DNA from: Parelaphostrongylus tenuis | Lineage: Eukaryota; Nematoda; Chromadorea; Rhabditida; Metastrongylidae | Assembly (NCBI GenBank): GCA_019055375.1 | Contig: JAHQIW010002017.1 | Span: 310,001-374,000 of the forward strand | DNA length: 64,000 nucleotides | Reading direction: 5' to 3' | In this document: one piece after another, positions 2,601 to 48,835 of the stretch | Layout: each line of letters starts with the position of its first letter | Numbering within the stretch: position 1 is the first letter of the stretch | Position numbers and translations under genes: made by a program | The notes under the pieces: model-generated | What the model saw: the letters and a program-made list of their open reading frames with translations, nothing else | Databases searched by the model: none | What the model was told of the DNA's origin: nothing

Positions 2601-5600
2601 GTAATCCATGGGTCAACTTGTGACATTAGTGATTGCAATCAGATTTCACTTGCTGTACTTTCACTTGTTTTGAGAAAATCAGAACGAAAACCTTTTTTCT
2701 TCGGAAGAATACTTATGACCTTGATTCATTTTGAGAGAAGCATTGAAATTATCATACTCGGAAATTTCCCTTACCCTTTGAGCAGATTTAGACGTTAAGC
2801 GATTCTTATCATCGGCTTAAGTCCTGTTTAGCGTTTCTTTTCAATTTTATAGTTGCAAAGCTTGACATTAGGGAGGGCGCCCTAGTTCAGAGTATTGAAA
2901 ATTTTCGACTTCGTTGCTTCAAAAAGCCGAAAATGTTAGGAAGTGCTAGCTCATCTATGAAATATTATTTGCCAACATTCTTTCCAGTTAGACGTTTGAA
3001 CGATGTGCATGCAACTGATGAATTTATGTATTTCTATTTACGTGAATAGTCAAATCCACCCATGTGATTTCCGAACGATGCAAACTCCCAATTTCATCTT
3101 TCGATTTTAGCATATTGAAATCGACATTGCTTATGCGATTTTTAACAAAGTCGACAACACCACGTGAAAACGAGCACTCCGCTCTCTACAAAAATAGGTT
3201 TTTATGCATATCGAAAATGACGATTGTTTTAGCACCACGATGAGTTTTCAGTTCCCAAACTGCGAATTGATAAATAATGGTATGCAGTGACAGTTTCAAT
3301 CGTCGACAGAGTTTCACATCAAAAAAATGGTCCATATTCTCAGTAGAGAGGCAGCTAAGAGCGGACCAAGTCTCCTTCTAATCAGAACTTCAAAATTGGC
3401 TTTATAAAGGTAGAATGGAATCGTCACACACCTCTTCGTGGTTTCGGCACTCCGCATGGTCCCGAGGTCCTCGAAGTGTCGAGGAAATCAAGCGCAGGAT
3501 ACCGTGCCTGAGGGAACGTCAGTGCTACGTGAGCATCTCCCACAGCCAAGAATAGGAATATTAGCAGTGGGACTACGTCCCTCATCGACGATTCTAGAAA
3601 TATGAGTGCTTTTTAGATTTGAGTCCTTTTATTAGAGAAATGATACGTTATTCGGTGTTTCTGATATCATGTCGAGAAACATTTCACATAGGAAAAAGTC
3701 ACTGTGACAAGCATGGCACGAATTTTGTGTTACAGACTTATTTACTGCACTTCACATGAAAATCAGTTTGAAATGCAGCTAATAAATAGTCAAGAAAAAG
3801 ATCTATTTGGTTACTCCATTGTCTAATTTTTGCTTTGATGAAAGAGAGGAAGAAATTAGTGGTAGGAAAGCATTTAGAGACGCATGATAATCCTCTTATC
3901 CTGTGTAGTACACCAGATTTCTTGAACATGGATTGTGACCAAAAAGAAAATCTCCCATTCTAAGGTGAACAGAAGACGGTTCTTATTACTCAAAGGTCCA
4001 GCTCTCTTTAAACCTCGGTATGAGTGAAGAAATGCAAAAGTTCTTTCGAATTGTCCTTTTCTTTGATTAAAACTTGCACGAGGTTGGTACTTGTCTTTTT
4101 TCAAAATTTGATGGCTAACGCTTTGGCGACACCGCCTTTGTTCAGAGCCTTCTTTAAAGTTATACGAGAGAGGTCGCCGGTTCTATGTGACACACTGTGA
4201 AAAATATTTGGCCGAAGCGTGAGCCATTAGATTTTAAGAAAGTAAAAATACCATCCTCGCGCAATTTTCAGTTGAAGGAAGAACAAAGGTTATTCTATAA
4301 AGATGAAAGTTGACCGTAAAGGATGAGATTCAGCATGTACATCTGCGCTTGCCAAAATCCCTCGTAATAAAACATTACAAGTAAAAATTCAGGAAATGGA
4401 TTTTTACCTTCTATCGCGCCATAATGAAAACCTTCCGTATATACGCAGTATTCTTTATGCGTTTGAAAGTTTTCTCAAAGAAATATGGAATATATCGACA
4501 CGTGAGTGGGTCTGATCTTAAAAGAACATCAAGAGCACCGTCCATCTATCGAGCGAGAATCTAGTTTCGTCAGCGATGACACTGTTTCAGAAATATGCAA
4601 ACGACACTGCTCAGGATGATGGGGTCGGCTTTTCTATGCCAAGGCTAAGTTACTAACATAAGTTTCTTTGGGACACAGTCGTCCTTCGTTGGACGTACAA
4701 GTTAAAAAAGTGGACTTGCTAAACTAGCTACTAATGTAGTCATATTAGAGCATTCTGCATGCATACAGTCAGAAGCAAACATTTTATTGAGGGGCTCCCA
4801 TCATTAACGACGAGATTTTTTTTCAAGAAAACATTCTGTTGTGCCCATCTAATGATAAGATTTTACTGCCAAGAAGTGAAAATGGATGAAAAGATGGAAC
4901 GTAATATGCAGAAGTATATTATAACGACCGAGACGACCTACTCCGTGAAAGTAACAATTCGAAATTTCTTATTCAAAAGCCTTTGACGGTGGATGTACCA
5001 CAACTGACTATACCGCATGATCGTCGATGTAAGACCTCACCTAACTAGTTGCAGTTGCAACGCATATCGCTGAATCGAAATGTTGCCTTCGTTATAACTG
5101 ATCCACTTTCCTTCAGCTGATTATTACCAAGATAGAGCTAAAGATCCAAGAGAGGACTTCGTTTTAAGATTTTCAATTTGACCCAGAAACATGAGCTATA
5201 GCAACTAGTATGAATTCGCAAAGGACTAAGTATAAGTAGTTTGAAAGTGAAGGTAGATTATGACGATTAATCCAAGTAATGGTTCATCCAAAAGCAGAAG
5301 TGTGATTCTGACATCAAACAATCATGCAGCATCCATTCTTGAGAGTATCGTAATATAACAACTTAGCTAGCACACCTGGTCGTTCGTTCATGGTCAAACA
5401 TCGGAATTAAAAGTGCTTAAACAATAAGGAACTAGTAAGGACGTATTATGCTAAGAAGGTTCATATCTATTCTATCCCTGTAATTGCCAAAGCCCACTGT
5501 TGTCGAATTTCTTCAAGCTAATCTGATAGCATATTTTGAGCCTTTCATGAGACGTGTCATAGCACTTACACAGTACAATGTACGTGTTTTCGGCCTTCCA

Positions 5601-28900: not shown

Positions 28901-31900
28901 GAGAGACGAATGGTTGGGTAAAATTTACTATACACCGTTAGAAGTTCAATTTAACCACTACAAAAGAGAAGTTTACGGAGCATCTCAGAACACAATATAA
29001 GATAGAAAATTTGGCTCCATTCATTCAATGATTTCACAATAAAAAGGTTTATTCGTTCAGTAGGCACAACTCAAACCGTCATTTTCCATCGAAAACAATT
29101 ACATTAGAGCTAGATGTGAAAAAGGCTGAGGACGAGAAGCAACGAAAGGACAGAGAAAGAGAGAAGGAGGCTAAGGAGGTAAGAGAATGTTATTTTTATT
29201 GTATATGTGTATTTCAAGAGCTCTATACAAAGCCAAGGTACTCAATCCGATGAAAAACTCACGATTTTTACAGCAGTGAAGAAGAGTTCCTTACATTGAT
29301 GACATTACAGAAAATAGAAAAATCTAACCGAATGACTGGAAGTGGTCGACATGCGAAAAGAGATGTTATCCTTGTATTTTGATATTCTTCATTTCCAGAA
29401 AGCAGCGGCTGCATTAGTGGCATTACCGCTTGGTGCCCCACCAACCTATGCAGAATCAAAGAAGGTTAGAATTTTAGCCATCGCTTGCCTCTCAAAGCAA
29501 TGCAATTCTGTTTCCACCTAGAGAATGATGCCAACGTTTATGATATTTCCGTACCGCCATGATCTACAGTAATGGGAACAGTGGAACCTCTAAGCTAGAG
29601 AGAAACGTCTAGCTACAGCTACAGCTTTTACCTCATCTTTGACCTCTTTTTCCACACTGCGAATAACTCTCGGTAACCTGGTTTCTCGAGATTATCGTTC
29701 TATTCATCTCCTCATGGAATAAAGAGAGATCTGGCAATAGGTTTAATAGCCTTACGCTTTTGAGGCTCATTCATACTTTACTCACACATATTACTGTGTA
29801 AATGCGGCATTTTGCAGGATATGTTCTCTTATATATCAAGTTGAACTGCGTGTATCACCCGCCACCTGAAGTCCCGTTGATCGTCGAGTGACTCGAGCGG
29901 GTGCCAGCAACACTTCCATTTTTGCCCGTCGCGTGCGAGAGTAGCCCAGTGGGTCCTCCTCGCTCAAGGGATTCGCTGAGCATCACATCTCTCCTCTATG
30001 TCTTCCGTGAATAAATTGGACTAACGGGCTGGTGGTCTTCTTGTAGAGCGCTTGATATCCCGAGAAATTCGGTAACGGCTCTCGTCTATCGGTTGTCGTT
30101 AAAGCGCATCAGGTGTACGGCCCACCTTGTTTTCGATACCTGGCGCCTAGAACGGCTTCTCTGATTTTTGATCGTTGACGCAAGTCGAAATTTTGGATTC
30201 TTTCTCTTATTTGCGAGATACGGGATATCCCTAGCATTGAACATTCGATTGCGCATTCAATAACGCTAGGTGATCTTTCATTCGACTCACGTAGCAACCA
30301 GGTTTCTGCTGCATCCGTTAAGGCAGGGATATTCGTCGAGTCGGAAAGGTGGGCGCGGAGTCGGATGTTCTTTGTCCCCTTCACTACATCTTCGATGCCC
30401 TTAACGTTCTCCAAGCCGCTCGTTTCCTCCTGCTCAACTCTGGAGCTAGGTTCTTCATCATGTTGATTTCACGACCTAAATAGACGTATCTGGAGCACTT
30501 GGAGATTGTCGTTCCGTTGAGCGTGAATGGGGCATTCAAAACTCATCCATTCCTCATGGACATCGTTTCCGTTAGATTTAGTTGAAGACCAATCTTTCCA
30601 CAGGCGTTATCGAAATCTGTCAACATTCGTTCCGCTTGGCGGATGTTTGGTGATATGAGAACGATATCGTCAGCAAAGCGAAGATGGTTTGATTGTCGAC
30701 CGTCAGTTGTCACTCCCATAACGTCCCATTCTAATGTTCGCATGACGTTTTGTAGGGTGGCAGTGAATAGTTTTGGTGAAATTGTATCGTCTTGTCGAAC
30801 CCCTCTTCTTACGTCAATGGTAATATTGTTGTTGAAGAGAGATATTTTTGCCGTGAAATCTTTGTAAAGCTCACGAAGGATCATTATGTACCGAGTAGGG
30901 ACGCCCCGGTTATCCAGAGCCTCTATAACCGCTTCTGTTTCCGCTGAATCGAAGGCTTTCTTCAGATCGATGAAAGTGAGACAGAGTGGTTGATTGTACT
31001 CTCGTGAAACTTCAATGAGTCTTGTAATCGTGTGGATGTGGTTTATGGTACTAAATCCTTTTCAAAACCCTGCTTGTTCTCATGGTTATCCTTCGTTCAG
31101 CATTCTATCATTCTTTTTTAGGATGGCTCAAGTGAAGAGTTCATAGACATCGGACAGCAAGCAGATAGGGCGATAATTGCCTATGTCGTGAAGGTCTCCC
31201 TTTTTGAACAAAAATGCGGTCTTGCTGGTTTTCCATTGAATGGGACCTTGCATTCTGACAGGTAGCGAGTGAAGAGCGGAGCCAGGGTGTCGATAAAACT
31301 AGCGGCAGGTTTTTCATGTGCCCTGGCCTAATGACCGGGTGTTGTTCTGTTCTTAACCGACGATGTAGCATGTCGGATTTTGGAAGGGAGGGGGGACCGG
31401 TGGAACGGCAGGTTCATCCTCTTTCAATTCATATGACGGCGAGAGGACATGGCTAGCGGAGATCCGAGTAGTACTGGTTGATAATTTTCTCATAACTCTT
31501 CTGGAAGCTGTAAGTGTCTGCTCAAGACATGAGAGCAGTCATTTTGGTCTTACAATTGGCGAAGCCTCGCTGGACTTGCGAATTCTCTTCCAGGTTTCTG
31601 CAGCTTCTAGCATAACTGCTGCTCGTCTCTCGTTGAGGTCTTCTCTTATCGCATCTCTACAGCGTTTCGCAAGATCGGACGTAAGGTTTCGCTTGCCTGT
31701 AGCTCGTGTGATTCCACGTTGACGTATCAGCTCGAGTGTCTGCAAAGATAAGCGTCTCTTCGTGACTTTAAGACTCTCGGCTTTTACAGCGTTAACGTGG
31801 GGATATTCAACGAGCCGGTCGTATTCTTAGTCGATGTTGTCGACAAGGCTATCTTCCCAGGAGCCGCGTATTGATTTCAATATATTCCAGTTTACGGTAG

Positions 31901-34900
31901 TCCGGGACTTTGCTCTTCGAATTTAGCGGCTTTCTCTCCATTTGCGAAAAGCGGAACGTTGCGATAGTCCAATCCCGTGTAGAGCTTAGGAACAACAGCA
32001 ATATCGGTTATGCATAATCTCAAATTTACTAGGATGTGGTCTGTTTCGTTATGGTACTCTACATTGGGAGACTCCCACGTCCATCGCTGAGAGTGAAGCT
32101 TTTGGAATTGAGTTCCCTGGATGGTTTGAGTCGTCATGATAAGCTCACGAAGCCTCTTACCCTATTCATTCCTTTCTCCGTGAGTCTCAATGTGGCGCTC
32201 TTCAGACGATCTTCTTTGTCCAATTTTTGCGTTAGAATCTCCGACAATGACTCTAAAGAATATATAAGATTCTCTGAAAAATTTTCTGAGATCCACAAAG
32301 AACGCTTCGACTTTGTCTTCGTCATACCTTGATGTTGTTGTTGCTGCATAAGCAACGAAGATCATCAAAGCCGGCATTAAAGCACATCGTTCTAACCGTA
32401 ATCGTACGATAGCGGTTGTTAGTTGTTCAAATGAATCGATGTTCCACGGTCAAATTCGATTTGACGAGGACGACAACGCCGCCGACACCTCTGCTATCGC
32501 ATGTTTCGAGAAACAGTTCTTCTCCGATGTCATAAACAGCGTGAAAAGAATTGCGTCTTCTCGTCGCAGCCAGGCCAATGACGTCATACCGTATTCCTAA
32601 TGCTTGAATCAATAGATCTTCCACAGCGAATTCGTAAGTAAGTGTTCTTGCACTGTGGGTACAGACCGTCATTTTAGTCCGTTTTGATTTTCGGCGGCCT
32701 AGTTGGGCCCTGAGATTTTAGCGGCCTCTCCGTACTCGTCCTACCTGGCGCTACCGTGCTGGGGGCTCTTTTGGGGATAAGGGATTGAGGTTCATATTTG
32801 TTACTGTTTTTAGCATTTTGATACCCAATGTATAGCTTGCTAGGGTCTAAACGTGGGGGCTGGGTACTCACGAGTAGCTTGTCATTCTCTTTTGAAGGAG
32901 CGGAAGGAGGTTATTTGTTAGAGGCCACTCCTATCCGCCTCGCATGTACTTCCCAGTCGCTTGATTGCAGGCTTTTGGCCGACTTTACTCGTAGAAATAG
33001 AGTTTTGTTAAATCGGTGCTACAGAAGCAGGGAGGTCGTCCTCTGGATCCACCTATGTCACCAGGAAGCACACGGTCGCTTTTGGTTCGCGTTTATTCCC
33101 CTATCCACCACCTGGGGATGCGCCACGTGCTCGCGCAACTAACCGGAGGGATCTCTTGGAAGGGAGATCCGTGGAGCTGCGTATACAACTTTCAAAAATT
33201 AAGAGATAGAGCTCAGTCCTACATAGCAAAGTAAAATGTAATCACTCGCATCAACATACATACGTGGTCAACTTTGATCCATCTTTCACATTTACCAGAC
33301 AAATATACCTATAGGGCACAAATAGTAAAAATTAATTAACTTGTATTTCTTTACCCCTTCGAGATCAGTCAATGCCTCGATAGTCGCTTCTTGATGTTTC
33401 AAATTCTTACCTTAATTGTGCTATGTCTGTAAAACTTTTCTTAGGATGTCGTACTGGCAAGCAATGTGATGACAAACAACCGCCCACAAACACGTAAGCT
33501 TTCTTCATGAGAGTTCTAATGAGTTAACTAATGAAAGGCATTCTGTTTTGTTCTGTTTTTAGCGCAATTGCCAGGCCACGAGGCACTCACTAAAAAATCC
33601 AGCGATTCGGTGAGAAAAGGTTTTATTGCCATGTCATCTCTTGACCTTAACCATTCATCCGCTTTTTGTAAATACACAAATCCATTTCCAGCTAGACCAT
33701 TCAAAGCAAAGCGCTAGCACTGCTCCGCTTCAAGTAAGTTTAGCGATGTAAAAGAGATAAAGTGGAGAGTGTTTTTGCTGTCATGAGAGTTATGCTGATT
33801 TATTCTAGAATTTTTTTGGAGTTATTTTGAATGTTTATTACGAGGTTTTAGAAACATTTGGTCCACCAGGCGAAACCATCGACTGATGGTGATGGACCAG
33901 TGTCATTGAACACTATGCCATCACCACATACCACATACGCCTCCCTCCTTGCTACAATGCAGGGCTTAATGTGGGGCGGGGGTCACTGACGAGGAGGCCG
34001 AAACCTCCGAAACACCGGTGTATGGCCCTGGCGTACCAACCTCGTTTAGGCTAAAAGCATTCTTTTTTTTTTGGAGTTATTCTAGAATTATTCTAAAAGA
34101 GGAAAATTTGTTTCAATTTATAAATCTGCAAATATAATTTCAAATTTTTTTCAGATATAGTACTTACAATGATCAAAGTAATAATGTCATGATGAAGCCT
34201 TTAAGTCACGATCTAATGCAGTTCTTGACATTAGAGTGAAACGAACTGTTGATTTGTTGATTGATTCGAGAATTTAGCTGTTTTGTTTGAACTCAGTTTT
34301 GCTTCTTATCAAAGACTTGCAGTGTTAACGTTACTTTCCAAAATTTCGAATCAGGAAATATCTCTGCGTAGACATAGGCCTTCGTTATGATCCTGTTAGG
34401 ATGCCAAAAATCTCTAGTTACGAAATTGAACAATTTTTTTCATATGTCACGATCCAACATCATAACTGTTCACTATTTGCTTCTGCTTCGATTTCGTTGC
34501 ATGGTTAGATTCCTATCTATCAAAAATAAAACACCCCATGGTTTTTATGAGTTGTGCCAAGACTGTATGAGTGAGTAGCATTACAAAAAGGATTTTACTC
34601 AAGCAAGGCGCATTGAAAGTCTTATAAATTTTCAGACAAGAGTTACAACTCCCTCCATATCTACTACTCAGAATGAAAGCAGAGTAGAATTATCAAAACT
34701 AGCTGATTTGACAATTCTTGCACCTCAATCTATGCCTTCAAATCCAGCACCAAAGCAAAGAGTAGAAAGGCTCGAAACACCTATACTAACTCAAACACCA
34801 ACAACTGTGGCATCAGCTCCCTCGTTATCGGTTACTGCGAAGTCACCCAGTTTATCGTCATATAAATACACAATAAGTTCCCAAACTGGGCGGCGGTCGC

Positions 34901-37900
34901 CATCACGGACATCGAACAAAATTGCTGGTAACACCAATAAGCAGAAAACAGGGGTTTCTGGCGGATCATCAACCACTACTGGAATGGTGCGGTCGTTATC
35001 ATCGTCATCTATATCGCAGAAAACACATACGGACACTGAGTCGAAGCTTGAGACTGCAAAGGTGCATTTTTGACTGCATTTGTCACTTTACAAAGGCTAG
35101 TGATTGAGATCAAATATTACAAAAACAATTATGCAATAGTAAGCATAAATGTGTATTTTAGCTTCGCTTTCACAATAACTCCTGGATTTATAAATATTAT
35201 GTCGTTCCATAAGTTTTGGCACAGAGCACTAAACCAATTTAGTTAATCATAAGTGACCGAAATTGCAATTGTACTATCTTGGTGTCGTAAAAGGCGCATT
35301 TTTTTGCTAATATTTTGGTATACAGGTTGCCTATATTTGCTTTAAGATAGAGCTGTCTTGAAGAGTAAATTCGCTCACTATCCATGCACGAATTGCACAT
35401 AAGGAAATGCTAGTGAAGCGTCGCGTAGCAGTAATGGAGGTTCCTGTGGACGGCCCGAGCGCCACTGATCATCCAGAAGGTTTTCTCCAGCTTTGAACTT
35501 TGCGAACCCCTCCTTGACCACACTTTCCTCGGCCCTTTAATCACCTCAAGTTCCATTAATCTAAAGCCCGCTCAAACAGCATTCTTCCCTACGTGCTGTA
35601 TGTGCATGAGCGAATCTACTCTTCAAAGAGCTCCATCTTAAATCAAGTATAGGCATGTTATGTACTAAAATGTTCACAAGAAAATGCGCAATTGAATCAT
35701 ACTACAATCTACAATAACGGAATTTTAGTTAAATCTACTTAGTGAATATACTTTCAGGGCCAAAACATATGAAATGACCCAATATTTTGCTGAGAGATCG
35801 CGTTACATATCTATGATGAGGTACTGTGTATGATACGGACGTACCTGCGCTCTTGGCACTTCAACTTCTTTATTTGGATGTCAGTCTATTGACTCATTTC
35901 TCCACATTCCATCAAAGCGTTCTGGCCATTCATTAAAACTTATCACTGAGATGCGATTTTCCTGCTCATCAAGCGGAGTATCCATAGATTTTTTCCATAT
36001 TACTATATGGCTATCAAATATTTATCATGCGGATCCCAGTACTTCTAGCATTCCATTCATTTACTCGTATTGATTTTCCTTAAAGCTCTTCAAACATTTT
36101 GAGTGCTGTTTCTACTACTGCTTGAAAATTCGTCTTCTTCATGGTTGTCGTGGAATGCTGGTCGAATCGAATCTATTTGCAATCGCGAAGTAAGCCAGGC
36201 TATGGCGCTTCCAAGTGACTACAAAACAGTGCTGGCTAGGAACTAAACCAGAATTGCGCTTCTCATTAACCCGCTGATCACGAGCATCACTAAAGACTAG
36301 GCTACCACTTCTTACTCTTTGAATTAACAAGTGGCACCTTATTGATCCGTCTTCACAGTATTTCCTTTTTCATTAAGCGGATTCCACTACTTTTAGCATT
36401 CACTTCGTTTTTTTCTTCTTTTTCTTGAACGTTAAAGAACTCTGGTTGAACACATCTCCTTGCAATCTCGAGGGTAGCCTGGCTGTGGCATCGCGTCCCG
36501 TATTGATTTAGCTATTAGAAATCAGTAAAGGAGCGGCGATTTGGTATTTTGAGATCACCTAGATTGTTCAAATCGCTTTTTTCTGTCCAGAAAGAGGAAC
36601 TTAGATCAGGAAATGATAGACTTTGAAGGGTGAAATTTTAGACTAACCAAAAAACTAAAGCTCATGTACCGAAATTAGATAATAGAAGTGGTGATGACAC
36701 ACTGTCATTGTACACTGTGCCATCATCACATACTCCTACCTCCTTGCTACAATGCAACCCTTTATGTGGGGCGTGGATCACTGACGAGGAGGGCGAAACC
36801 TCCGAAACACGCGTGTATGGCCCTGGCATACCAACCTCGTTTAGGCTTCAAAACATTCTGTTTTGAAATTATTCAGATCATATTGTTTTACAAAGTTCAG
36901 AGCTCAATGGTGTCTACATAGGCTTAGTGGGCTAACATTTTGAAATGCCGTATTAGTGGTACCTAAAACATCCCGGCTGCGTGCTAATGCAGCTTCTTAA
37001 GTAAAATTATTAACAGTTTTATCAGTTTTTCTACCAAATTATGACACAAGTAATGCAACTCTTTGGACATTTTGATAATCATGTGTATTTGAGGCACCAC
37101 CCACTCCTGCGCAAGCCATGCCGCCAAAGCGGAGCACTTGGGTATAGAAGGGGTGGGTGCTTTCACAAATTCACTATATAATAGTAAATGTTGCATCAGC
37201 GTACTAAAGACGCCACAAGATTAATTGCTCAATATCGTATTCCTTATACTTTTACGTAATTAATTAATCATCATTTTGTTGTAAATGAGGCAAATATCGC
37301 GCATATAAGGAAGATTTTTGAAACTAGATTTCTACGTTCTGCTTATATGACTAGAGCGCTGTGGCGCAGTAGTTAGAGGTGCCTACGTCACGCGCAATGT
37401 GGATGGTTCGATCTCGCTGTAATGGTTTACCAGGTCATCAATCCCCCCGAAATCCCTAGATTGGTACCAGGCGCAGCAATGACTCGATACAGCGGTGAGG
37501 CCACCTCGAGTCACTGTAGAGGCCAGATATGCATTCAGTCACGTCAAACGAAGTCAAAAAATGGAAAACGAATGCATGGCGCATCCCTCAGGGGTTGATC
37601 AACTCCGAGTGCTCTGTCCTTTTATGCTTTAACATATGACGATACTAAATAACTATGTGTTCAGCAGGAGTAACATTGTACAGTTTCATTCTATGAAGCA
37701 GATCGTATTAGCCATTTGGGCGGGATTATGTAATTGATCTAGACATTTTTTAATTGAAGAATATGATCATTTGGTTGAAATTTATTGCCACATGTTTTAC
37801 CTGTAGTTTTAAATCGTCGGCCAACTGGTGTGGACAGCTAAAAACTCCATTTGTCCACACTGGTCGTACATTGGGGGCCTACAAGGGACAGACAAAACAT

Positions 37901-46900: not shown

Positions 46901-48835
46901 CCGAGAGCTTCATCCTTTTATTTATGGACCACACGGAGCAGACCATTGGGTTGAGATCCGGAACCTTTGACGGCAAAATATCCTTATCCCAAAATTGTGG
47001 ATACTGCTCCTGATAGACAGATAAAAAATATTACATCAATCCTAAAATGAGCAAATTACAACACTAGCAGAACTTTTCTAGCATCCTGTAAATTCAGTGA
47101 GTTCTAGCAATACTTAAATGAGTTGAATGCATAACACATCTTCCAGAAATTTATCAACGTCGAACATTCTATCTCTTGATAGGTCTTTCTAAATTAGCTA
47201 ATAGCTAAGATTGACAAATGAAGTTTATTAGGCTACACTTCGACGTCGTCATCTCTGTGCTAACCAATAATCCGAGTCGATTGACCACAGCCCTTTGATG
47301 TTGCTGTGGCCCTCGCTTTCGAGATCATTCGAGTCAAATTTTCTTGGATGGAACAGTTTTCGAATTAGGAATCTCACTCGGCAATGATTTTATATAAGAA
47401 ATGGTTGTTCTGATACGACAATGGCTCAGTAGGTGAATTCGATGTGGTGATATATCACACTTGGAATTTACTCACTTTGTAAAGACATTTTATACAGCAC
47501 GATTATTGTTACCATCTAATACGACATACTTTTTTCTACAGCAATGCATAATGTCACCAGCCTGCATCATTATTGATCAACATTTTACCAACTAGATATA
47601 GTTCATATGAGGGTGCTCTATTCCACTCAAATCAACCTTGTGATAAATCTTATTTAGAAGACAATCATTTAAGAACAGTCGAACTTGAATTACTGCGCCT
47701 TTGAGAAAGTAGAATGTGCTGAAACTTTGGAGGATGAGGAGCTGCTTGCAATATCGGATTATTCCTTGTTTTCTTCCCAAGCCAAACACGAGATACTAAA
47801 ACACAATTTATTCAAATAGTTGACGTTTCGGCAGCTTCGCCTTTTTCAGAGCTTGGAAATTTACCTGGGTTGGAGGCTCTCGCGATCATGAAGGCGAGAC
47901 CTCCATGGCGAGGTCCAGATACTGCACTATTGTGTGGACCGGCACGTCTGGCTACTTCGAGATGGAGTAAGCCAATAACTAAATTTTTGCGTTCTGGATC
48001 TGAAAAAGGCGGAAGTGCCGAAACGTCAGCTGTTGATAAATTGTGTTGTAATACCTCATGTTTGGCTCAAGAAGAAAATAAGGAATTACTGAAGACTGTC
48101 GAGTTTGATAGACAGGAGGTCATGGTAATATCGGTTAGAGTTGATTATGCAATAAAACTGCGCTGATGGGTAGTTATTGAACGGATGCAATCGTATGTTG
48201 GCATGCGTACCCATTATGAGTATTTGTATTCATGTGGAATGTGTGAGTGGCTATTTTACGGCTCAATGCATCATAAACGCATGCAGGATCAGCTTATTTG
48301 CTTTATTACAGTCCCCTGAATATATTTATGATAGATGGTTCTTTACAGGATTCTCTAAACATGCGATTTGGAGAACAAGTGGATTCAGTAAACAAATGTG
48401 AATCAGCGATTTTGAACACTGATCAGACACAACTGTCCATTTCCACCTTGTTGAGCTGTTCGGATAAGAAATCTGCTTCCATTAACGGATTTCCGCTAAG
48501 TTCTGAATCTACTAAGACCAAAAAAGAGCAGCGAGATATCACTTCACTTACATGCACCAGTGAGTCGAAAATCATATCACCATAATCAATAGCTAAAATA
48601 AAATAGAACGCGATAGTCCACCAGTGACAGAAACTAGGTTTTTTACTATCATAGCAGAAATCTTTCAGCTGGAGAGAACCAAACGATGACCACACCGCGT
48701 AACGAAGAAGTTGAACAAACCCAGTTGACGACCACACCGCGTAATGAAGAAGTTGGGCAAAATCAGTTGGTAACCACACCGCCTAATGAAGAAGTTGATC
48801 AGTTGAATAAAACGTGGGAAGATTTGAACTTTTGA
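2342..48835 (+). CDS. very large multi-exon gene (composite model), product unidentified
   Basis: This model joins the plus-strand exons listed separately. It starts at ATG 2342 and ends at TGA 48833-48835. The first four exons (2342-2456, 2532-2600, 3386-3409, 5117-5160) total 252 nt in frame. Exons at 10054, 11029, 11966 and 15741 are each phase 0 to phase 0. The seventeen exons from 24516 to 48835 total 1887 nt, or 629 codons with the stop. Splice sites are mostly nematode-like. The predicted product is hydrophilic: charged and coiled-coil-like first, then Ser/Thr/Pro-rich, then a mixed globular segment, then three C-terminal 14-residue repeats. I do not recognise the family. It could be two adjacent genes, broken somewhere in 12-24 kb where few exons are visible, and exons are probably missing. 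Introns are full of transposons and ribozyme-bearing repeats. Confidence 0.45.
3386..5160 (+). CDS. two short exons (3386-3409 and 5117-5160)
   Basis: The first is a 24-nt exon after TCTCCTTCTAATCAG, encoding ELQNWLYK, with donor GTAGAA. The second, 44 nt long, follows CTTTCCTTCAG and encodes DYYQDRAKDPREDF with donor GTTTTA. Both take two bases from the preceding phase-1 exon, so they continue the frame begun at 2342 and close in phase 0. Their shortness makes each uncertain alone; the support is the splice-site quality and the phase chain. Between them (3410-5116) I see no other supportable exon. Confidence 0.3.
5573..5616 (-). ncRNA. hammerhead ribozyme-like motif, family A, copy 1
   Basis: Read on the minus strand: stem I GTGCAA pairs with TTGTAC over six positions. 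The core reads aTGACGA, with C3 changed to A. Stem II is GGCT/GGCC closed by a GGAA tetraloop, followed by GAA and a short near-palindrome for stem III. The flanks GACTGAACCGACAGACACC and CTCATGAAAGGCTCAAAAT recur in the other family A copies. The changed C3 and one extra base next to stem III suggest reduced or lost self-cleavage. Confidence 0.6.
5830..5865 (+). ncRNA. hammerhead ribozyme-like motif, family A, copy 2 (stem II lost)
   Basis: The intact core CTGACGA (5836-5842) follows the stem I strand GTGCA. Stem II is collapsed to GGCTC before GAA and ACATGCGT. Stem I can still pair with CTGCGT using two wobbles. The same flanks as copy 1 are present (GACTGAACTGAAAGGCACC upstream; GACAGATCTCATGAAAAG downstream). 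It lies head-to-head with copy 1, about 215 bp away. Probably inactive because stem II is deleted. Confidence 0.55.
5931..9910. other. no gene recognised; possible intron of the large gene
   Basis: Several 60-97 codon ORFs occur but show no domain, no repeat relationship and no convincing splice pattern. A short ATG frame at 9072 runs into a good donor (GGAAG|GTGAGA) and could be a first exon of something, but nothing continues it. I report nothing further here. Confidence 0.35.
9930..9970 (+). ncRNA. hammerhead ribozyme-like motif, family A, copy 3
   Basis: Stem I CCCGA (9930-9934) pairs perfectly with TCGGG (9966-9970). The core is gTGACGA (C3 changed to G). Stem II GTCT/AGAT carries a GTAG loop. 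GAA (9954-9956) leads into the perfect palindrome ACACGTGT as stem III, then A17 after GU (NUH = GUA). Only C3 departs from the consensus. The downstream sequence GGGCTGTACAAGAGCC is shared with copy 4 at 14.05 kb. Confidence 0.7.
10054..10116 (+). CDS. exon of the large plus-strand gene
   Basis: A strong acceptor (CCCAAATTTTCAG) precedes 21 codons, LLPPAMPASPKTGNSKKAESR, which end at CGA|GTTTGT, a donor form common in nematodes. The exon is phase 0 on both sides, compatible with the exon ending at 5160 and with 11029. The composition (Pro, Ser, Lys) resembles the low-complexity parts of the later exons. Confidence 0.45.
11029..11199 (+). CDS. helical exon of the large plus-strand gene
   Basis: The frame stays open for 57 codons, phase 0 to phase 0, beginning FERTKEKRFDSAVILTEKLI and containing HAGLNSEMLNKALLQKLKID before a Lys-rich end and donor AAA|GTCTAC. 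The residue pattern is amphipathic-helical. The acceptor (GATAACAG) is poor, so the left edge may lie elsewhere. No family recognised. Confidence 0.45.
11569..11688 (+). CDS. exon of the large plus-strand gene, left edge uncertain
   Basis: The frame includes MSRRSKRLQMICNNRYISED and ends MEFFTDDKSNLIELTALQ before donor CAG|GTCACG in phase 0. The frame extends upstream of the Met, so the true acceptor is not fixed; CTACTTTTTCCATGAG is the best pyrimidine-rich candidate. The next exon, at 11966, starts in phase 0, consistent with this end. The opposite strand has an 89-codon ORF that I regard as its shadow. Confidence 0.4.
11966..12046 (+). CDS. Ser-rich exon of the large plus-strand gene
   Basis: The acceptor ACTATTGCTTTAG opens 27 codons, HKSLSWMTSTSNDAHLLGSS plus GNGSSKQ, and closes at CAG|GTATGAG, a consensus donor. 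Phase is 0 to 0. Both splice sites are good and the length is a multiple of three. The intron that follows was entered by a mariner element. Confidence 0.5.
12172..12660 (+). mobile_element. mariner transposon remnant (5' end with N-terminal transposase)
   Basis: A terminal repeat starting TAGGTTGGAAAGGAAGTTC matches the ends of the mariner copy at 23.4-24.0 kb. From ATG 12322 a 100-codon frame runs to TAG 12619-12621, interrupted once by a TAG where the family has Trp. Diagnostic words are the helix-turn-helix-region block FNAGKLDLEDKPRSGRPTKL and the following NDEDLISSLEDESSSSAREL. The catalytic DDE part and the 3' repeat are missing. It sits in an intron of the plus-strand gene and cannot transpose on its own. 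Confidence 0.85.
13459..13620 (-). mobile_element. 3'-end fragment of an RTE-type retrotransposon
   Basis: This segment aligns with the 3' end of the RTE copy at 29.86-30.0 kb. Shared words in plus-strand order include CGTATCACC, CGTTGATCGTC, a stretch around CTTCCATTTTT, then GTGCAAGAGTAG against GTGCGAGAGTAG, and ATTCATTGAGCAACAC against ATTCGCTGAGCATCAC. It is a 5'-truncated insertion, as expected for target-primed retrotransposition. Confidence 0.6.
14029..14055 (+). ncRNA. hammerhead ribozyme-like motif, family A, copy 4 (degenerate)
   Basis: The core is shortened to CTGAGA. Stem II is reduced to GGTC, followed by GAA, ACACATGT and ATCGGG. Downstream GGGCTGTACAAGAGCC and ACCACATGACATGTTGG match copy 3, so homology is clear although the fold is broken. 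Confidence 0.5.
14110..15740. other. no gene recognised
   Basis: AT-rich, with scattered short ORFs and no repeat family or exon I can support. Confidence 0.35.
15741..15821 (+). CDS. possible coiled-coil exon
   Basis: These 27 open codons, containing RLKEYLQNEDKATWERTSAE followed by LDILNH, end at CAT|GTCAGC. The length is 81 nt, phase 0 to 0, compatible with neighbouring exons of the large gene. The acceptor is weak (TTTGAAAG), so the left edge is doubtful. The heptad-like spacing of Leu, Ile and Trp with charged residues suggests a helix. Confidence 0.3.
16908..16985. repeat. (TA)n microsatellite
   Basis: About 38 uninterrupted TA units. The minus-strand 70-codon ORF across it (Ile-Tyr repeats) is an artefact of the repeat. 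Confidence 0.95.
17431..17592 (+). CDS. doubtful exon candidate
   Basis: An ATG frame starting MLGKKSSARSTKINQVDVTT stays open to SRAG and meets a donor-like GCTG|GTAAAC. The basic, polar composition resembles the large gene, but there is no upstream splice support and an RTE fragment begins just downstream. Confidence 0.2.
17625..17735 (-). mobile_element. 5'-end fragment related to the RTE element at 33.1 kb
   Basis: Plus-strand words GGCGCCACGTAGTCTCGCG, ACTAACCGG and GAGATCCGTGG correspond in order to GCGCCACGTGCTCGCGC, ACTAACCGG and GAGATCCGTGG at 33119-33177, the 5' leader of the full RTE copy. No coding part follows, so a 5' leader without its body is present here. Confidence 0.6.
17740..19860. 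other. no gene recognised
   Basis: Only short ORFs. A minus-strand 85-codon frame at 18867-19124 looks slightly protein-like (starts MTEMLKKSDELFQC) but has no domain or splice support. Confidence 0.3.
19928..19970 (-). ncRNA. hammerhead ribozyme-like motif, family A, copy 5
   Basis: Minus strand: the full core CTGATGA (19964-19958) is followed by stem II AGCT/GGCT with a GAAA tetraloop, then AAA where GAA is required (G12 to A), stem III ATACGTGT, A17, and stem I GTGCCG with TAGCAC (GTGC/GCAC pairs). Shared flanks are CACACCGTGC upstream and CACCTCATGAAAGGC downstream. One core change from consensus. Confidence 0.6.
20376..20430. repeat. (TCTA)n and (TA)n microsatellite
   Basis: Imperfect TCTA/TTTC units followed by a short TATATATA run. 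Confidence 0.8.
20600..22380. other. no gene recognised
   Basis: No exon, RNA gene or repeat family that I could tie to another copy in the window. Confidence 0.35.
22384..22615 (+). mobile_element. tRNA-derived SINE, family 3
   Basis: The head CTTGGCCGAGTGATTGTGAT resembles the A box and D arm of a Leu/Ser-type tRNA. Further on come GACTATCCTCGAGATTG, then a tail GAATTGAATGCTAGAACTAC, the short word GGCACAGTGAAAAA and GAGACGGATCAA. The same order recurs at nine or so other places in the window on both strands. Non-coding; the 73-codon minus-strand ORF here is incidental. Confidence 0.75.
23131..23300 (+). mobile_element. tRNA-derived SINE, family 1, copy 1
   Basis: The tRNA-like head reads GCCTCTGGGGTGTCGTGGTA, with a B box GGGTTCAACTCC about 35 nt later. 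The body has TAGGTATATATGGAATGTCA and CTGCAAAATCGCAGTAAAAA. It is the same head and body as 24256-24430. Confidence 0.7.
23405..23973 (-). mobile_element. internally deleted mariner element with C-terminal transposase
   Basis: The minus strand encodes the C-terminal third of a mariner transposase: a segment with GHRKRALFQQDNAK (second catalytic Asp within QQD), then frame-damaged sequence, then AFQEFFDLKPKEWYFDQIRK and LVKRWQKVVINDGLNFED with its natural stop at 23485-23487. Terminal repeats are TAGGTTAGAAAAAAGTTCCC at 23406 and the inverse of TTAGGTTGGAAAGAAAATTT near 23953-23973. The 5' leader joins directly to the C-terminal part, so roughly the first two thirds of the coding region is deleted. 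It abuts a family 1 SINE. Confidence 0.8.
23787..24347 (+). repeat. 281-bp tandem duplication
   Basis: The block from CTGAAACAAAGCGCGCTTTC at 23787 recurs at 24068. The period is 281 bp and the copies look identical over the whole unit. Each unit carries mariner 5'-end sequence plus the tRNA-like head of a family 1 SINE. The duplicated 65-residue frame is therefore not a gene. Identity implies a recent event or an assembly artefact. Confidence 0.9.
23975..24067 (+). mobile_element. tRNA-derived SINE, family 1, copy 2 (head only)
   Basis: The head GGTGCCTCGGTGATGTAGTG has an A box, and the B box GGGTTCAAATCCC matches the Pol III consensus. It stops at TTTTTGCCCC, where the second unit of the tandem duplication begins, so the body is missing. 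Confidence 0.7.
24256..24430 (+). mobile_element. tRNA-derived SINE, family 1, copy 3
   Basis: The head is identical to copy 2, with B box GGGTTCAAATCCC and the closing words TTTGAGGCCGAG that pair with the GCCTCGG start. The body continues CTAGGTGTATATGAAACATC and GCTGCAAAATAACAGTAAAA, matching copy 1. Confidence 0.75.
24516..26055 (+). CDS. exons 24516-24532 and 25962-26055 of the large gene
   Basis: A 17-nt microexon (FYHLH plus two bases) lies between the strong acceptor AATTTTCTTTCAG and donor GTAAGAA. The next exon, after GATAGCTTCAG, completes the Ser codon and encodes SQQSSQSDDVNLQERVKEMH then EQVGTLSSLTT before donor ACG|GTAAGG. It looks like a short coiled coil. Phases join exactly, and the end (phase 0) fits 28806. 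The microexon is less certain than the larger one. From 24533 to 25961 I see nothing else. Confidence 0.5.
27250..28330. repeat. dispersed repeat family R4, several modules
   Basis: Repeated small modules built around words such as GCGCTATAGCACTAAAAATA, ACGCTGTAGCAAAGAAAAAA, GCGCTACAGCAACGATAAAA and AATACAGCGCTTTGC, each followed by TTTTCCAAAA-like runs. The same words occur at 43.8-44.6, 48.9-50.6, 56.2-57.0, 58.4 and 63.4-63.8 kb. The 95- and 96-codon ORFs inside are incidental. Confidence 0.5.
28806..28917 (+). CDS. charged coiled-coil exon
   Basis: After GACATGGTCTTTAG, 37 codons plus one base: SKFPSLPTAVVIQRKDSEDE, then KKSGTQRDEDRERDEWL, ending at G|GTAAAA. Starts in phase 0, matching 26055, and leaves one base that forms Glu with AG of the next exon. 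The RDEDRERDE run is a charged helix of the sort found in long coiled coils. Confidence 0.6.
29108..29178 (+). CDS. charged helix exon
   Basis: The acceptor AATTACATTAG is followed by 71 nt encoding (E)LDVKKAEDEKQRKDREREKE then AKE, and a consensus donor GAG|GTAAGA. Almost every residue is charged, typical of a single alpha-helix or coiled coil. The phase chain with 28917 and 29399 is exact. Confidence 0.65.
29399..29464 (+). CDS. exon upstream of the RTE-bearing intron
   Basis: The acceptor TTCATTTCCAG opens 22 codons, KAAAALVALPLGAPPTYAES plus KK, ending AAG|GTTAGA. Phase is 0 to 0. It continues the charged helix into an Ala/Pro linker. The 4-kb intron that follows holds the RTE element in antisense orientation; the next exon resumes at 33445 in the same phase. 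Confidence 0.65.
29835..33170 (-). mobile_element. RTE-clade non-LTR retrotransposon, decayed, near full length
   Basis: Minus strand, about 3.3 kb. An N-terminal leader peptide starts near 32871. The AP endonuclease domain is at 32.67-31.9 kb, with RYDVIGLAATRR, GEELFLETCDSRGVGGV, VIVGDSNAKIGQRR, RWTWESPN and a DHILVN block. The reverse transcriptase at 31.1-30.5 kb has RRGVRQDDTISPKLF and the catalytic FADDIVLI near 30665. The C-terminal block around WAVHLMRF and DQRDFRWRVI is near 30.1-29.85 kb. Several frameshifts and stops (for example TAG for Trp in the C-terminal block) break the single ORF into pieces. It is inserted antisense in an intron of the plus-strand gene, so it is probably immobile but could be a splicing or antisense burden. 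Confidence 0.9.
33445..33733 (+). CDS. three small exons (33445-33493, 33563-33609, 33692-33733)
   Basis: The acceptors are AAAACTTTTCTTAG, TTCTGTTTTTAG and TCCATTTCCAG. The donors are GTAAGC, GTGAGA and GTAAGT, all near consensus. The exons encode DVVLASNVMTNNRPQT, PQLPGHEALTKKSSDS and LDHSKQSASTAPLQ, with phases 0-1, 1-0 and 0-0. Introns are only 69 and 82 bp. This run of three matching splice pairs is the strongest evidence for a real gene here. The composition moves toward the Ser/Thr-rich region. Confidence 0.8.
33885..34060 (+). repeat. hammerhead-bearing repeat, family B, copy 1
   Basis: About 175 bp aligned with 36688-36850. It opens with a hairpin (GGTGATGG ... CCATCACC enclosing AGTGT/ACACT), continues through CTCCCTCCTTGCTACAATGC and TAATGTGGGGCGGGGGTCA, then the ribozyme, and ends GCGTACCAACCTCGTTTAGG. 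It lies in sense orientation in the intron between 33733 and 34636. No tRNA boxes and no coding potential. Confidence 0.8.
33980..34028 (+). ncRNA. hammerhead ribozyme, family B, copy 1 (all core bases present)
   Basis: Stem I GGGTCA (33980-33985) pairs with TGGCCC (34023-34028), six pairs with one G-U. Core CTGACGA is at 33986-33992. Stem II GGAGG/CCTCC is five perfect pairs with loop CCGAAA. GAA is at 34009-34011. Stem III is the ten-base palindrome ACACCGGTGT, and A17 follows U16.1 (cleavage triplet GUA). All invariant hammerhead nucleotides are present. The very short stem III is typical of metazoan and retroelement hammerheads, which often work best as dimers. Confidence 0.85.
34636..35061 (+). 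CDS. Ser/Thr/Pro-rich exon of the large gene
   Basis: The longest exon: 142 codons, phase 0 to 0, after acceptor AATTTTCAG and before AAG|GTGCAT. It starts TRVTTPSISTTQNESRVELS, passes through KLADLTILAPQSMPSNPAPK and a GRRSPSRTSNKIAGN segment, and ends in poly-Ser (MVRSLSSSSIS) before KTHTDTESKLETAK. The composition indicates a disordered region with likely phosphorylation sites (RRSPS). No domain recognised. The 81-codon minus-strand ORF is a shadow. Confidence 0.75.
35265..35715. mobile_element. MITE-like element with long terminal inverted repeats
   Basis: Left arm words GCGCATTTTTTTGC, TATTTTGGTATAC, TTGCCTATATTTG, TAAGATAGAGCTG and GAAGAGTAAATTCGCTCA recur in reverse complement and order on the right (ending near 35692), for example TGAGCGAATCTACTCTTC, AGCTCCATCTTA, AAGTATAGGCATG, GTACTAAAATG and AAAATGCGC. 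The arms are about 90-100 bp, the centre about 230 bp, and there is no coding. It lies in an intron of the large gene. Confidence 0.75.
36026..36325 (-). mobile_element. tRNA-derived SINE, family 3, minus copy
   Basis: Plus-strand reading begins with the inverse tail GCGGATCCCAGTACTTCTAG, then CATTCCATTC, and further on AAGCCAGGCTATGGCGC, the inverse of the GCCACAGCCAGGCTA block. The head is eroded. Confidence 0.6.
36365..36510 (-). mobile_element. tRNA-derived SINE, family 3, truncated minus copy
   Basis: Inverse tail GCGGATTCCACTACTTTTAG, then CTTTTTCTTGAACG, TTGCAATCTCGAGGGTAGCC and TGGCTGTGGCATC. It stops before the tRNA-like head. Confidence 0.6.
36688..36850 (+). repeat. hammerhead-bearing repeat, family B, copy 2
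   Basis: Aligned over about 165 bp with 33885-34060, including a starting hairpin (GTGATGA/TCATCAC), CTCCTTGCTACAATGCAACC, TTTATGTGGGGCGTGG, the ribozyme, and ATACCAACCTCGTTTAGG. Same orientation, about 2.8 kb downstream, in the next long intron. Confidence 0.8.
36775..36823 (+). ncRNA. hammerhead ribozyme, family B, copy 2 (all core bases present)
   Basis: Stem I GGATCA pairs with TGGCCC with one mismatch. Core CTGACGA is at 36781-36787. Stem II GGAGG/CCTCC has loop GCGAAA. GAA is at 36804-36806. Stem III is the palindrome ACACGCGTGT, then A17. Compared with copy 1, the two central bases of the palindrome and one loop base differ while pairing is kept. Paired or fold-neutral changes of that kind suggest selection for structure or a recent active source. 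Confidence 0.85.
37350..37632 (+). mobile_element. tRNA-derived SINE, family 2
   Basis: A tRNA-like head: GCGCTGTGGCGCAGTAGTTA gives an A box matching TRGYNNANNNG, and GATGGTTCGATCTC is a near-perfect B box. The body has CTCGATACAGCGGTGAGGCC, CGAGTCACTGTAGAGGCC and GAATGCATGGCGCATCCCTC, as in 46621-46925. It is in an intron of the large gene. Confidence 0.8.
38108..38344 (-). pseudogene. protein-like minus-strand ORF, unidentified
   Basis: A 78-codon frame with a natural-looking residue mix (contains FVKIKVEIAQYHLFYAVGTG and FIVPELKKAYQENEIYPAVM). After a stop the frame stays protein-like for about 30 more codons (around CFWMPSYKTQ). It may be a gene fragment or decayed transposon piece. The opposite strand is also open, so either could be the shadow. 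Confidence 0.2.
39228..39512 (+). mobile_element. tRNA-derived SINE, family 3
   Basis: Head GGGTGCCGTGGCCAAGTGTT; then GAACGCCACAGCCAGGCTAT; tail GTTGAATGTTAGAAGTACTG, GCAGTAAAAAAAAACACTGT and GAAGACGGATC. Same block order as the 53449 and 63183 copies. Confidence 0.75.
40841..40895 (+). CDS. exon of the large gene
   Basis: The acceptor TTGTTGCTTTTAG opens 18 codons, PTLLQFVDKDCLQCFRPA, plus one base before GTTTTC. It starts in phase 0 (from 35061), and its last G joins TA of the exon at 42157 to give Val. The residues are more hydrophobic than in earlier exons, suggesting the start of a folded domain. Confidence 0.55.
41150..41340 (+). promoter_or_regulatory. TATA box and poly(A)-signal pair, possible solo LTR or promoter
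   Basis: CTCGTATAAAAGAGC near 41163 is followed about 150 bp later by AATAAATACT. The spacing recalls a retroelement terminal repeat or a compact promoter, but there is no matching second copy in the window. Confidence 0.2.
41841..42135 (-). mobile_element. tRNA-derived SINE, family 3, minus copy
   Basis: Inverse tail GTGGATCCCAGCACTTCTAG and CATTCAATTCG at the left; inverse of a tRNA-like head at the right (minus strand GGCGGCTCAAGTGTAGTCAA then GTGGTTAATAAAC). It ends about 20 bp before the acceptor of the 42157 exon. Confidence 0.55.
42157..42344 (+). CDS. exon of the large gene, folded-domain segment
   Basis: After CCAATTTTTTGAAGGCAG, 188 nt encode (V)VPHEAYFSIAWDESNDLDR, AKLILQYINLESIGDMYFTV and LLQHHGILPCQFNHLRSILK, then TSP, ending CCT|GTATTT. 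The mix of aliphatic and polar residues is that of a globular helical domain. Phase is 1 in and 0 out, joining 40895 and 43401 correctly. An alternative donor three codons later is possible. Family not recognised. Confidence 0.6.
43401..43470 (+). CDS. exon of the large gene with hydrophobic helix
   Basis: The acceptor CACTACCAATCTCAG opens 70 nt, VAFVIAMAVVVHKLSTKFRE then SLR, with strong donor A|GTGAGT. The ten hydrophobic residues could be a buried helix; they are too short for a firm transmembrane call. Phase is 0 in, 1 out. Confidence 0.55.
43564..43717 (+). CDS. exon of the large gene
   Basis: The acceptor CGCCCTTTTTTAG opens 154 nt: (T)ENDETARSDQSTNADPLYF, SKSDISHAEPIEVRIERPWH, TLSHLDKIWCY, ending AG|GTGTGC in phase 2. 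An earlier donor (GAA|GTGAGG at 43659) is also good, but only the later one keeps phase with the next exon at 45087, where A completes Arg. Alternative splicing is possible. Confidence 0.55.
43815..44560. repeat. dispersed repeat family R4
   Basis: Contains GTCAGTAATCACTCGGTAGC at 43830 and CAGTAATCATTCGATAGGG about 297 bp later. Between them are CTCTGGCTACAGC, CACGTCACCAG and GATGGCGCTGTAGGAAAAAT. The right half (GGGCGAGGCGATCGATC, TCTCTACACATTCATATGC) matches 50280-50450. No coding potential. Confidence 0.55.
45087..45135 (+). CDS. exon of the large gene
   Basis: The acceptor CCATTTTCTAG opens 49 nt, (R)KALAERTEKHTVTDDE, ending GAG|GTCAGT. One base completes the Arg codon begun at 43717; phase 0 out. 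Charged and helical. Confidence 0.55.
45678..46045 (-). mobile_element. tRNA-derived SINE, family 3, minus copy flanked by (TA)n
   Basis: (TA)n tracts flank the element at 45680-45730 and 46000-46040. The SINE itself is about 45772-45996: inverse tail GCGGATCCCACTACTTCTAG, TCTCGAGAATAGCCTGGCCG, and inverse head ACAACCACTCGGCCACAGCG. The 101-codon minus-strand ORF is SINE sequence. Confidence 0.75.
46216..46284 (+). CDS. exon of the large gene
   Basis: The acceptor AAAGGTTTTCAG opens 23 codons, PILNFVWKKTPCGATSALAD plus AHQ, ending CAG|GTAGCG. Phase is 0 to 0, between 45135 and 48349. Confidence 0.6.
46450..46615 (+). repeat. short repeat shared with 52340-52455
   Basis: TTTGAGTGCGTCTACGGTAA, TGTAGTGAGTAGCCGA and the upstream CACGTTTCAGCTGTAATTAT parallel TCTGAGCTCGCCTACGGTAA, AGTAGTGAGTATCCGA and CGTTTCCACCGTAATTTT at 52340-52420. 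Probably pieces of a Tc1/mariner-type element or a nested unknown repeat. Confidence 0.45.
46621..46925 (+). mobile_element. tRNA-derived SINE, family 2
   Basis: Head AGCGCATGTGGCGCAGTGGG with A box TGGCGCAGTGG and degraded B box GGTTTGATGTC. Body TTGTCTGGGAGGATAAGCAG, ACTCGATCCAGCGGGAGGCC, CGAATGCATGGCGCATCCCT and a CGCCGAGAGCTTCATCCTTT end, shared with 1-330 and 37350-37632. Confidence 0.8.
47793..48055. repeat. inverted pair of Penelope-type hammerhead-like motifs
   Basis: Left arm (minus strand): CTGAAAAAGGCGAAGCTGCC, GAAACGTCAAC, then AATAAATTGTG. Right arm (plus, from 48000): CTGAAAAAGGCGGAAGTGCC, GAAACGTCAGC, then AAATTGTGTTG. Each has GAA, a minimal ACGT stem III and C17 (GUC). The arms are about 60 bp and 150 bp apart. 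The core has A where G8 should be in both copies, so activity is doubtful. The arrangement resembles the terminal motifs described for Penelope-like elements, but no reverse transcriptase or GIY-YIG nuclease is present nearby. Confidence 0.5.
48349..48559 (+). CDS. penultimate exon of the large gene
   Basis: The acceptor GGTTCTTTACAG opens 211 nt in phase 0: DSLNMRFGEQVDSVNKCESA, ILNTDQTQLSISTLLSCSDK, KSASINGFPLSSESTKTKKE and on to TSLTC. The consensus donor CCA|GTGAGT leaves phase 1. An earlier acceptor (TTTATTACAG at 48311) would add about 13 residues. Polar, Ser/Thr-rich tail region. Confidence 0.65.
48669..48835 (+). CDS. last exon of the large gene with three 14-residue repeats
   Basis: The acceptor AGAAATCTTTCAG opens 167 nt to TGA. 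After GENQT come MTTPRNEEVEQTQL, TTTPRNEEVGQNQL and VTTPPNEEVDQL, then NKTWEDLNF and the stop. The repeat unit is 42 nt. Two bases complete the Thr codon split from 48559. Acidic, disordered C-terminus. No clear AATAAA within 100 bp downstream. Confidence 0.7.

Follow-up and report, generated by a model that had tools for sequence, protein, structure and literature searches.

The window analysed here, a 64-kb stretch of the Parelaphostrongylus tenuis genome, carries on its forward strand a short insertion enclosed by a 13-bp target site duplication and containing the motif of a type I hammerhead ribozyme, and an older copy of the same element lies 2.8 kb away. The duplications, the 5' hairpin and the individual ribozyme parts listed below are read from the sequence itself. 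PLE stands for Penelope-like element and RT for reverse transcriptase.

33813..34076, + strand: retrozyme-like insertion, 264 bp, 47.7% G+C, delimited by the flanking target duplication
33800..33812: left target site duplication TTATTCTAGAATT, 13 bp
34077..34089: right target site duplication TTATTCTAGAATT, 13 bp
33840..33851, + strand: ACGAGGTTTTAG block, able to pair with AACCTCGT one unit earlier where copies stand in tandem
33887..33926, + strand: 5' hairpin of the unit, TGGTGATGG (33887-33895) with CCATCACCA (33918-33926), paired in the circular fold too
33979..34029, + strand: type I hammerhead ribozyme motif (descriptor, alignment, pair counts, predicted dimer fold)
33979-33985 with 34023-34029, + strand: hammerhead stem I
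33986-33992, + strand: hammerhead core CTGACGA
33993-34008, + strand: hammerhead stem II, 5 bp
34009-34011, + strand: hammerhead GAA
34012-34021, + strand: hammerhead stem III ACACCGGTGT, palindromic
34022/34023, + strand: cleavage base A34022, predicted cut after it
34034..34076, + strand: 5' half of a putative RT-start module, TACCAACCTCG followed by a T-run (site B); a PLE 3' end has it too
36689..36864, + strand: older copy of the element, 83.6% identical, hammerhead at 36781, stem III ACACGCGTGT
4012..4151, - strand: decayed PLE-type terminal piece, hammerhead-like with core CTGAACA, then GTACCAACCTCGT and CCGAGGT
47700..48140 (outer limits approximate): pair of decayed remnants of the minimal PLE-type hammerhead, arranged head to head, one from 47853 (-) and one from 47996 (+); each reads CTGAAAA where the core should be CTGANGA

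The hammerhead motif and its insertion

A sequence-only reading of this DNA had proposed a complete hammerhead in a short repeat, and a scripted descriptor, applied under a strict test, finds all of its parts at 33979-34029; the palindromic stem III, the GUA cut site and the five-pair stem II are each where that reading had seen them, and the repeat has its own 5' hairpin. A CUGANGA...GAA core, an NUH cut site, three stems and an open stem I place the motif in type I. When both strands are scanned, the descriptor gives exactly two motifs in the window, at 33986 and 36781, both on the + strand and both belonging to one repeat. In 150 dinucleotide-shuffled windows there are 20 loose matches (in 14 shuffles) and a single strict one, while both real matches are strict; the probability that the two motifs arose by chance is small. 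The covariance-model match whose absence was to count against the hammerhead does not appear: the Rfam hammerhead models give nothing at the gathering threshold on the window, and nothing at E up to 10 on 601 bp around the site or on five of the loci described below. Because the same run also misses the minimal hammerheads adjoining PLE genes in loci L083, L086 and L087, we give this silence little weight.

The repeat had been measured at 175 bp, which corresponds roughly to the part held in common with the 36.7-kb copy (183 columns, 83.6% identity), but the true insertion is 264 bp. It represents about one lap of a unit of ~277 bp, with both start and end in the T-run region (site B), and its boundaries are uncertain by a few bases because TTATT is common to element and target. 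Compared by eye with tandem copies, it is missing about 20 nt at site A, just downstream of ACGAGGTTTTAG. It is continuous across the ribozyme cut site at 34022/34023, and an unbroken copy at this point would need a template with a closed junction, whether circle or multimer. The flanks searched around 36689..36864 hold no common word of at least 8 bp. At the centre of stem III the window copy reads ACACC/GGTGT and the 36.7-kb copy ACACG/CGTGT, a double change that keeps the palindrome. We considered whether these two copies, on the same strand, might be the pLTRs of one PLE and rejected this reading: nothing in Pfam matches the single longer open frame that lies between them, tblastn with the PLE fragment of locus L083 finds no PLE pieces in the window, and the copies differ by 16%.

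Several other features lie in the window. An RT fragment at 30543-31061 (-) matches RVT_1 (E 3.3e-18) in a G+C-richer stretch with more open frames to about 32.7 kb. Its frame has 826 protein matches; among the 120 listed, 119 are named, all from strongylid nematodes (genera Angiostrongylus, Necator, Ancylostoma, Haemonchus and Nippostrongylus), and one is unnamed, so that by its sequence relatives the fragment appears to belong to an abundant strongylid retroelement, which we take to be RTE-like. At 23787-24347 there is a perfect 281-bp tandem duplication (100% identical), either a recent event or an assembly artefact, and at 48667-48798 a 42-bp repeat in about 2.6 to 3 copies, with a period that is a multiple of three. 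A tRNA gene at 62422-62493 (-) (Rfam, 60.4 bits) reads as tRNA-Cys by its GCA anticodon. Long imperfect inverted repeats at 57249-57545 and 60033-60379, with ~70-nt loops and 87% and 72% complementarity, are perhaps non-autonomous DNA transposons. A 44-nt repeat occurs in four copies (36020, 36368, 41833, 45767), and by eye its reverse complement resembles a 57-nt family at 22538, 39419, 53629 and 63349.

A ribozyme apparently built for dimers

Stem III has no loop, and one molecule can form only 3 bp of it with a CCGG loop. For a single core a non-hammerhead fold is predicted at -18.5 kcal/mol against -16.0 for the hammerhead, while for two cores together the prediction is a double hammerhead, with 10 bp in stem III, at -52.3 kcal/mol, against 2 x -18.5 separately; the 36.7-kb copy behaves alike (dimer -38.1 against 2 x -11.9). 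The stability of the 89-nt stretch is no better than that of shuffles (z -0.33). With its loop-less palindromic stem III the ribozyme should therefore act mainly as a dimer. On these predictions the description "complete hammerhead" is correct as a motif, and a lone copy would be expected to be weak and tandem transcripts strong. Reportedly, Lunse 2017 deals with dimeric hammerheads. The pairing of palindromic stems III in dimers is known (figure legend in Perreault 2011, PMC3088659). A viroid-like, rod-shaped circle was also considered and set aside: folding as a circle improves on shuffles by a moderate margin only (z -2.2 and -2.6), with a paired fraction of 0.56 and 0.58 against 0.60 and 0.61 in shuffles.

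A first scan of the genome (481.5 Mb, 5105 contigs) gave 1440 candidate places, 40 of which were scored, yielding 68 matches. Exact matching of the family pattern CTGANGA-N12..18-GAA-N10-ATGGCC finds 1525 places (768 + 757), and its reversed control finds 0. The stem III palindrome is perfect in 71 of the 100 listed matches, in 70 of these as ACACCGGTGT, and imperfect in 29; N7 is C in 89, A in 6 and T in 5. A looser pattern, in which base 5 of stem III is not C, has 488 matches against 52 in the control, and by edit distance 66 of the 100 listed are family members. The central pair of stem III in those 66 is GC in 38, TG in 11, GT in 4 and unpaired in 13; GG, the single-step intermediate, is found in none of them. 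Two adjacent bases are unable to pair with each other inside a single hairpin, and the CG to GC swap therefore points to a helix between two ribozymes; it marks an older subfamily and so may go back to one event, and TG and similar central pairs can arise by one transition.

Pair counts were made on 32 sequences picked from about 75, copies with a one-base stem III insertion being left out. A reading with a five-pair stem II and a five-pair stem III has 96.1% paired cells and a covariation score above all 500 shuffles, which relatedness among the copies inflates; the whole 19-pair model is weaker, its score being reached by 13 of 500 shuffles. Conservation of the core is modest: among 32 copies not chosen by motif, core changes number 3 in 384 against 185 in 6016, and an equally low count occurs in 268 of 20000 sets drawn at random and in 6 of 164 slid shapes. 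Over 61 copies, a set that includes loci picked by their core, N7 varies at 13% and the fixed bases of CTGA.GA at 1%.

These figures bear on the reading that the hammerhead is a dead relic carried along, or that the element is a satellite-like repeat without self-cleavage. The preference of a single core for a non-hammerhead fold, the modest core conservation and the imperfect palindrome in 29 of the 100 listed copies speak for this reading, which we nonetheless consider improbable, given that core and cut site are kept at 1525 places, that N7 is freer to vary than the fixed core bases in the partly core-picked set, and that the double change at the centre of stem III leaves 38 GC and 0 GG among the 66 listed.

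Head-to-head insertions with two fixed ends

We examined 82 loci comprising 68 insertions, a sample that is not random: L001-L028 were taken from among the 68 matches that scored best against the window copy, L029-L052 are copies with a one-base insertion in the ribozyme, and L053-L082 are matches in contig order. Tandem copies are present as head-to-tail units of about 277 bp, the monomer being 277 bp in L022. Divergence between units is 0.071 within an insertion (31 pairs) and 0.098 between insertions (2594 pairs), a difference reached in 0 of 1000 permutations; this likeness fits a circle and a linear multimer alike and does not separate them. In L046, three listed minus-strand ribozymes have the rare N7 = G and the plus-strand one has C, as if the arms had been copied from different RNA molecules.

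In 53 of the 68 insertions the arms are arranged head to head. The search for duplications masked exact element words and used as control the left flank paired with the right flank of another insertion. A flanking repeat was found in 44 of the 68 insertions overall, with 13 bp the commonest length. Repeats of 9-15 bp flank 36 of the 53 head-to-head insertions against 45 of 672 swapped-flank pairs, and repeats of at least 11 bp flank 28 of 53 against 14 of 672; 17 of the 53 have no 9-bp flanking repeat. One insertion seems to be represented by two alleles, L035 and L036, and the flanking repeat of L029 is probably element sequence.

The ends of these insertions follow a simple rule. We call the position at which the unit reads ..ACGAGGTTTTAGAAACAGTCGATTTAATGGAT site A, and the T-run with GGAATT, about 50 nt upstream of A, site B. 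Among the 36 repeat-flanked head-to-head insertions, 31 combine an A end with a B end (18 with A left and B right, 13 the reverse), the remaining 5 have one end elsewhere, and none has A/A or B/B ends; with repeats of at least 11 bp only, A/B ends occur in 23 of 28 and A/A or B/B ends in 0. The limits of the sites were set after the first loci had been seen, and the rule was noted before the third batch (L053-L082), in which 9 of 10 head-to-head insertions with repeats obey it. No end coincides with the hammerhead cut at unit position 260 (0 of the 72 ends of the 36 insertions). Two ends lie near it, at unit 256 in L022 and 253 in L023, 4-7 nt short, and are possibly starts near a cleaved 3' end.

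By these properties the element falls among the non-LTR retrozymes, with a type I hammerhead, head-to-tail units within the range of 150-450 bp, no LTRs, and target duplications that, where present, exceed 4 bp (9-15 bp in general and 13 bp for the window copy). It also has the inverted arms and the ends at two adjacent internal start sites (the tail) of a PLE, in 31 of 36 insertions, while an open reading frame for RT and a GIY-YIG endonuclease is absent from the element, its unit being too short; PLE reading frames lie elsewhere, apart from it. The earlier suggestion of a retrozyme-like mobile unit is thus borne out by the 1525 pattern matches, the ~277-bp head-to-tail units, the target duplications and a unit whose length leaves no room for an RT gene.

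An alternative is that a LINE, such as the element of the 30.5-kb RT fragment, moves the retrozyme by twin priming, and that its likeness to PLEs is due to chance. The fragment lies 3 kb away, and twin priming also yields inverted arms. Against this stand two fixed start sites, each used once per insertion in 31 of 36 cases, together with a tail; a poly(A) tail is missing from the insertion termini inspected, and the same genome holds a PLE of matching layout, described in the next section. We therefore regard movement by a LINE as very improbable.

Penelope-like elements in the same genome

The PLE fragment of L083 matches GIY-YIG (E 1.7e-7) and, below threshold, RVT_1 (E 0.039). It has 241 relatives, of which the 120 listed carry varying sets of the precomputed domains RVT_1, GIY-YIG and PF26215, the named rows among them being strongylids; no PDB relative was found at E up to 0.1. 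By tblastn with this fragment, PLE pieces occur in 16 of 87 loci, or about 11 separate places once overlaps between loci are allowed for, five of the loci having been retrieved specifically for their PLEs. The L083 PLE consists of inverted 1.4-kb arms, 99.5% identical, and is enclosed by a 12-bp duplication. Of these arms, one ends within the loop, at ..CATTTTCAAA, and its partner continues through CCGAGGTTTCAAGAAAGTCGG.., past CGAGGTT, so that the end rule of the retrozyme is seen in a PLE as well, in this one PLE only.

PLE 3' regions with a hammerhead are found in L083, L084, L086 and L087, and in the last three the hammerhead, a minimal one, shares the strand of the PLE frame and follows it at a distance of about 260 nt. 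The hammerheads encountered with PLEs belong to the minimal type (GAAACGTC, with a 4-nt stem III), unlike the type with the 10-nt palindrome. Retrozyme and L083 PLE have in common the order TACCAACCTCGT, loop, CGAGGTT, and folding pairs both blocks in two retrozyme modules and in the one PLE module tried. With one mismatch allowed in each block, ACCTCGT...CGAGGTT lies downstream of 5 of 9 PLE-type hammerheads located by pattern, against 166 of 5000 random stretches; the second block in L048 belongs to a neighbouring retrozyme copy, so that without L048 the count is four, and three more of the five matches need a mismatch. Aligned over the whole module, the retrozyme scores well against the L083 PLE 3' region (3 and 4 of 500 shuffles as high), while the match to the other five PLE-type 3' regions tried is weak or absent (12 to 317 of 500 shuffles as high). 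Two retrozyme units also lie at L083 7903-8413, ~113 bp beyond the PLE and not within its target duplication, an adjacency that may be a coincidence.

The common ACCAACCTCG...CGAGGTT module and end rule, and the hammerheads in PLE 3' regions of four loci, could mean that there is no separate retrozyme and that the repeat is a solo pLTR or deletion derivative of one hammerhead-bearing PLE family. We think this unlikely, because the PLE hammerheads have the 4-nt stem III and not the 10-nt palindrome, the retrozyme units in L083 sit beyond the PLE and its duplication, and none of the about 11 PLE places in the loci has a PLE with the ~277-bp unit as its pLTR.

Discussion

We conclude, with a probability of about 0.78, that the element is a non-autonomous non-LTR retrozyme of a strongylid nematode that is mobilised by Penelope-like elements. 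Its insertion ends and duplications match the PLE tail signature. The sequence-only reading had recognised the mobile unit, but the dimer design, the true ends and the link to PLEs escaped it.

A cycle that fits these observations would begin with the transcription of tandem copies. Dimers would then form between neighbouring hammerheads by way of the palindromic 10-nt stem III, and their cleavage would give RNAs of ~277 nt that are re-closed to circles or kept as multimers, as the design and the predicted folds would allow. A PLE protein, with its RT and GIY-YIG endonuclease, would recognise the 3' module of this RNA, in which AACCTCGT and ACGAGGTT form a stem that closes a T-rich loop, and both target strands would be cut, with one cDNA started from site B in the loop and the other from site A just past the stem; the observed end positions and duplications suggest that the cDNAs pass the hammerhead junction and that some copies exceed one unit. 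The two cDNA arms would join head to head, the layout that is observed, and repair would leave the duplications of 9-15 bp. The window copy would be a single arm of about one lap. A more specific picture, to which we give even odds, is that of a retrozyme RNA with a portable Penelope RT-start module, in which the typical insertion is a two-ended event on a ribozyme-closed circular RNA, one DNA end being committed to A and the other to B.

Published work on PLEs, as far as the parts drawn on here extend, offers a precedent for these steps. For a lizard PLE in vitro, RT starts at two adjacent internal sites of the RNA, both DNA strands are cut and extended, and the gap between the start sites equals the genomic tail (PMC11167929). 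Rotifer PLEs have inverted pLTRs, a 31-bp tail and duplications of 8-10 bp (PMC3846280). In the lizard assay the hammerhead is dispensable for insertion (PMC11167929), which calls for caution over the dimer-cleavage step of the proposed cycle.

Animal non-LTR retrozymes are a known kind of element (Cervera and de la Pena 2020, PMC7229834), and the sections of that paper used here agree with the present case in small tandem units, a type I hammerhead, G+C below 50%, high copy number, target duplications and co-resident PLEs. What differs is the nematode host, the prevalence of insertions whose two arms stand head to head and go back to two fixed start sites, of which those sections make no mention, a 3' module shared with a PLE, and a loop-less 10-nt palindromic stem III. 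With PLEs and their pLTRs, as portrayed in the same parts of PMC11167929 and PMC3846280, the element has in common two adjacent internal start sites, inverted arms, short target duplications, a tail and a hammerhead upstream of the start sites; it differs in having no RT or endonuclease gene and in a hammerhead distinct from the minimal PLE type of this genome. Dimeric hammerheads of the newt satellite and of PLE variants likewise have a palindromic stem III that closes fully, with 10 bp, only between two ribozymes (PMC3088659, from the portion cited), and here the same device occurs in a nematode repeat. The W-elements of Schistosoma are similar in that a type I hammerhead sits in a short repeat of a parasitic worm, but they are flatworm elements for which the portion of PMC8490949 cited here describes no PLE end signature. 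Plant LTR retrozymes, with a type III hammerhead and 4-bp duplications, are a different class from the type I element with 9-15 bp described here.

Among the open-licence papers listed in literature searches (at most 20 per list), no title or abstract opening reports retrozymes in nematodes, though an earlier report is possible, and the string "nematod" is absent from the texts of PMC7229834, PMC7761336, PMC6155905, PMC10085705 and PMC11722881. As far as we have seen, three things appear to be new: the host group, an architecture in which arms lie head to head and start from two fixed sites, and a tie to PLEs at the level of sequence.

What copies animal retrozymes has been a matter of candidates: in the passage of PMC7229834 that deals with it PLEs are only "a strong candidate", and a 2024 review, in the part we cite, still names both LINEs and PLEs. 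With a PLE signature in the insertion ends and a PLE of similar module and layout in the same genome, the question of the copier becomes directly testable on a template of ~277 nt, and the rule of one A end and one B end constrains how a PLE acts on its two DNA ends. If the more specific picture of a portable RT-start module holds, natural PLE reactions on a minimal template would be recorded in this genome by the hundreds or in still greater number, and PLEs would be the long-suspected engine of animal retrozymes.
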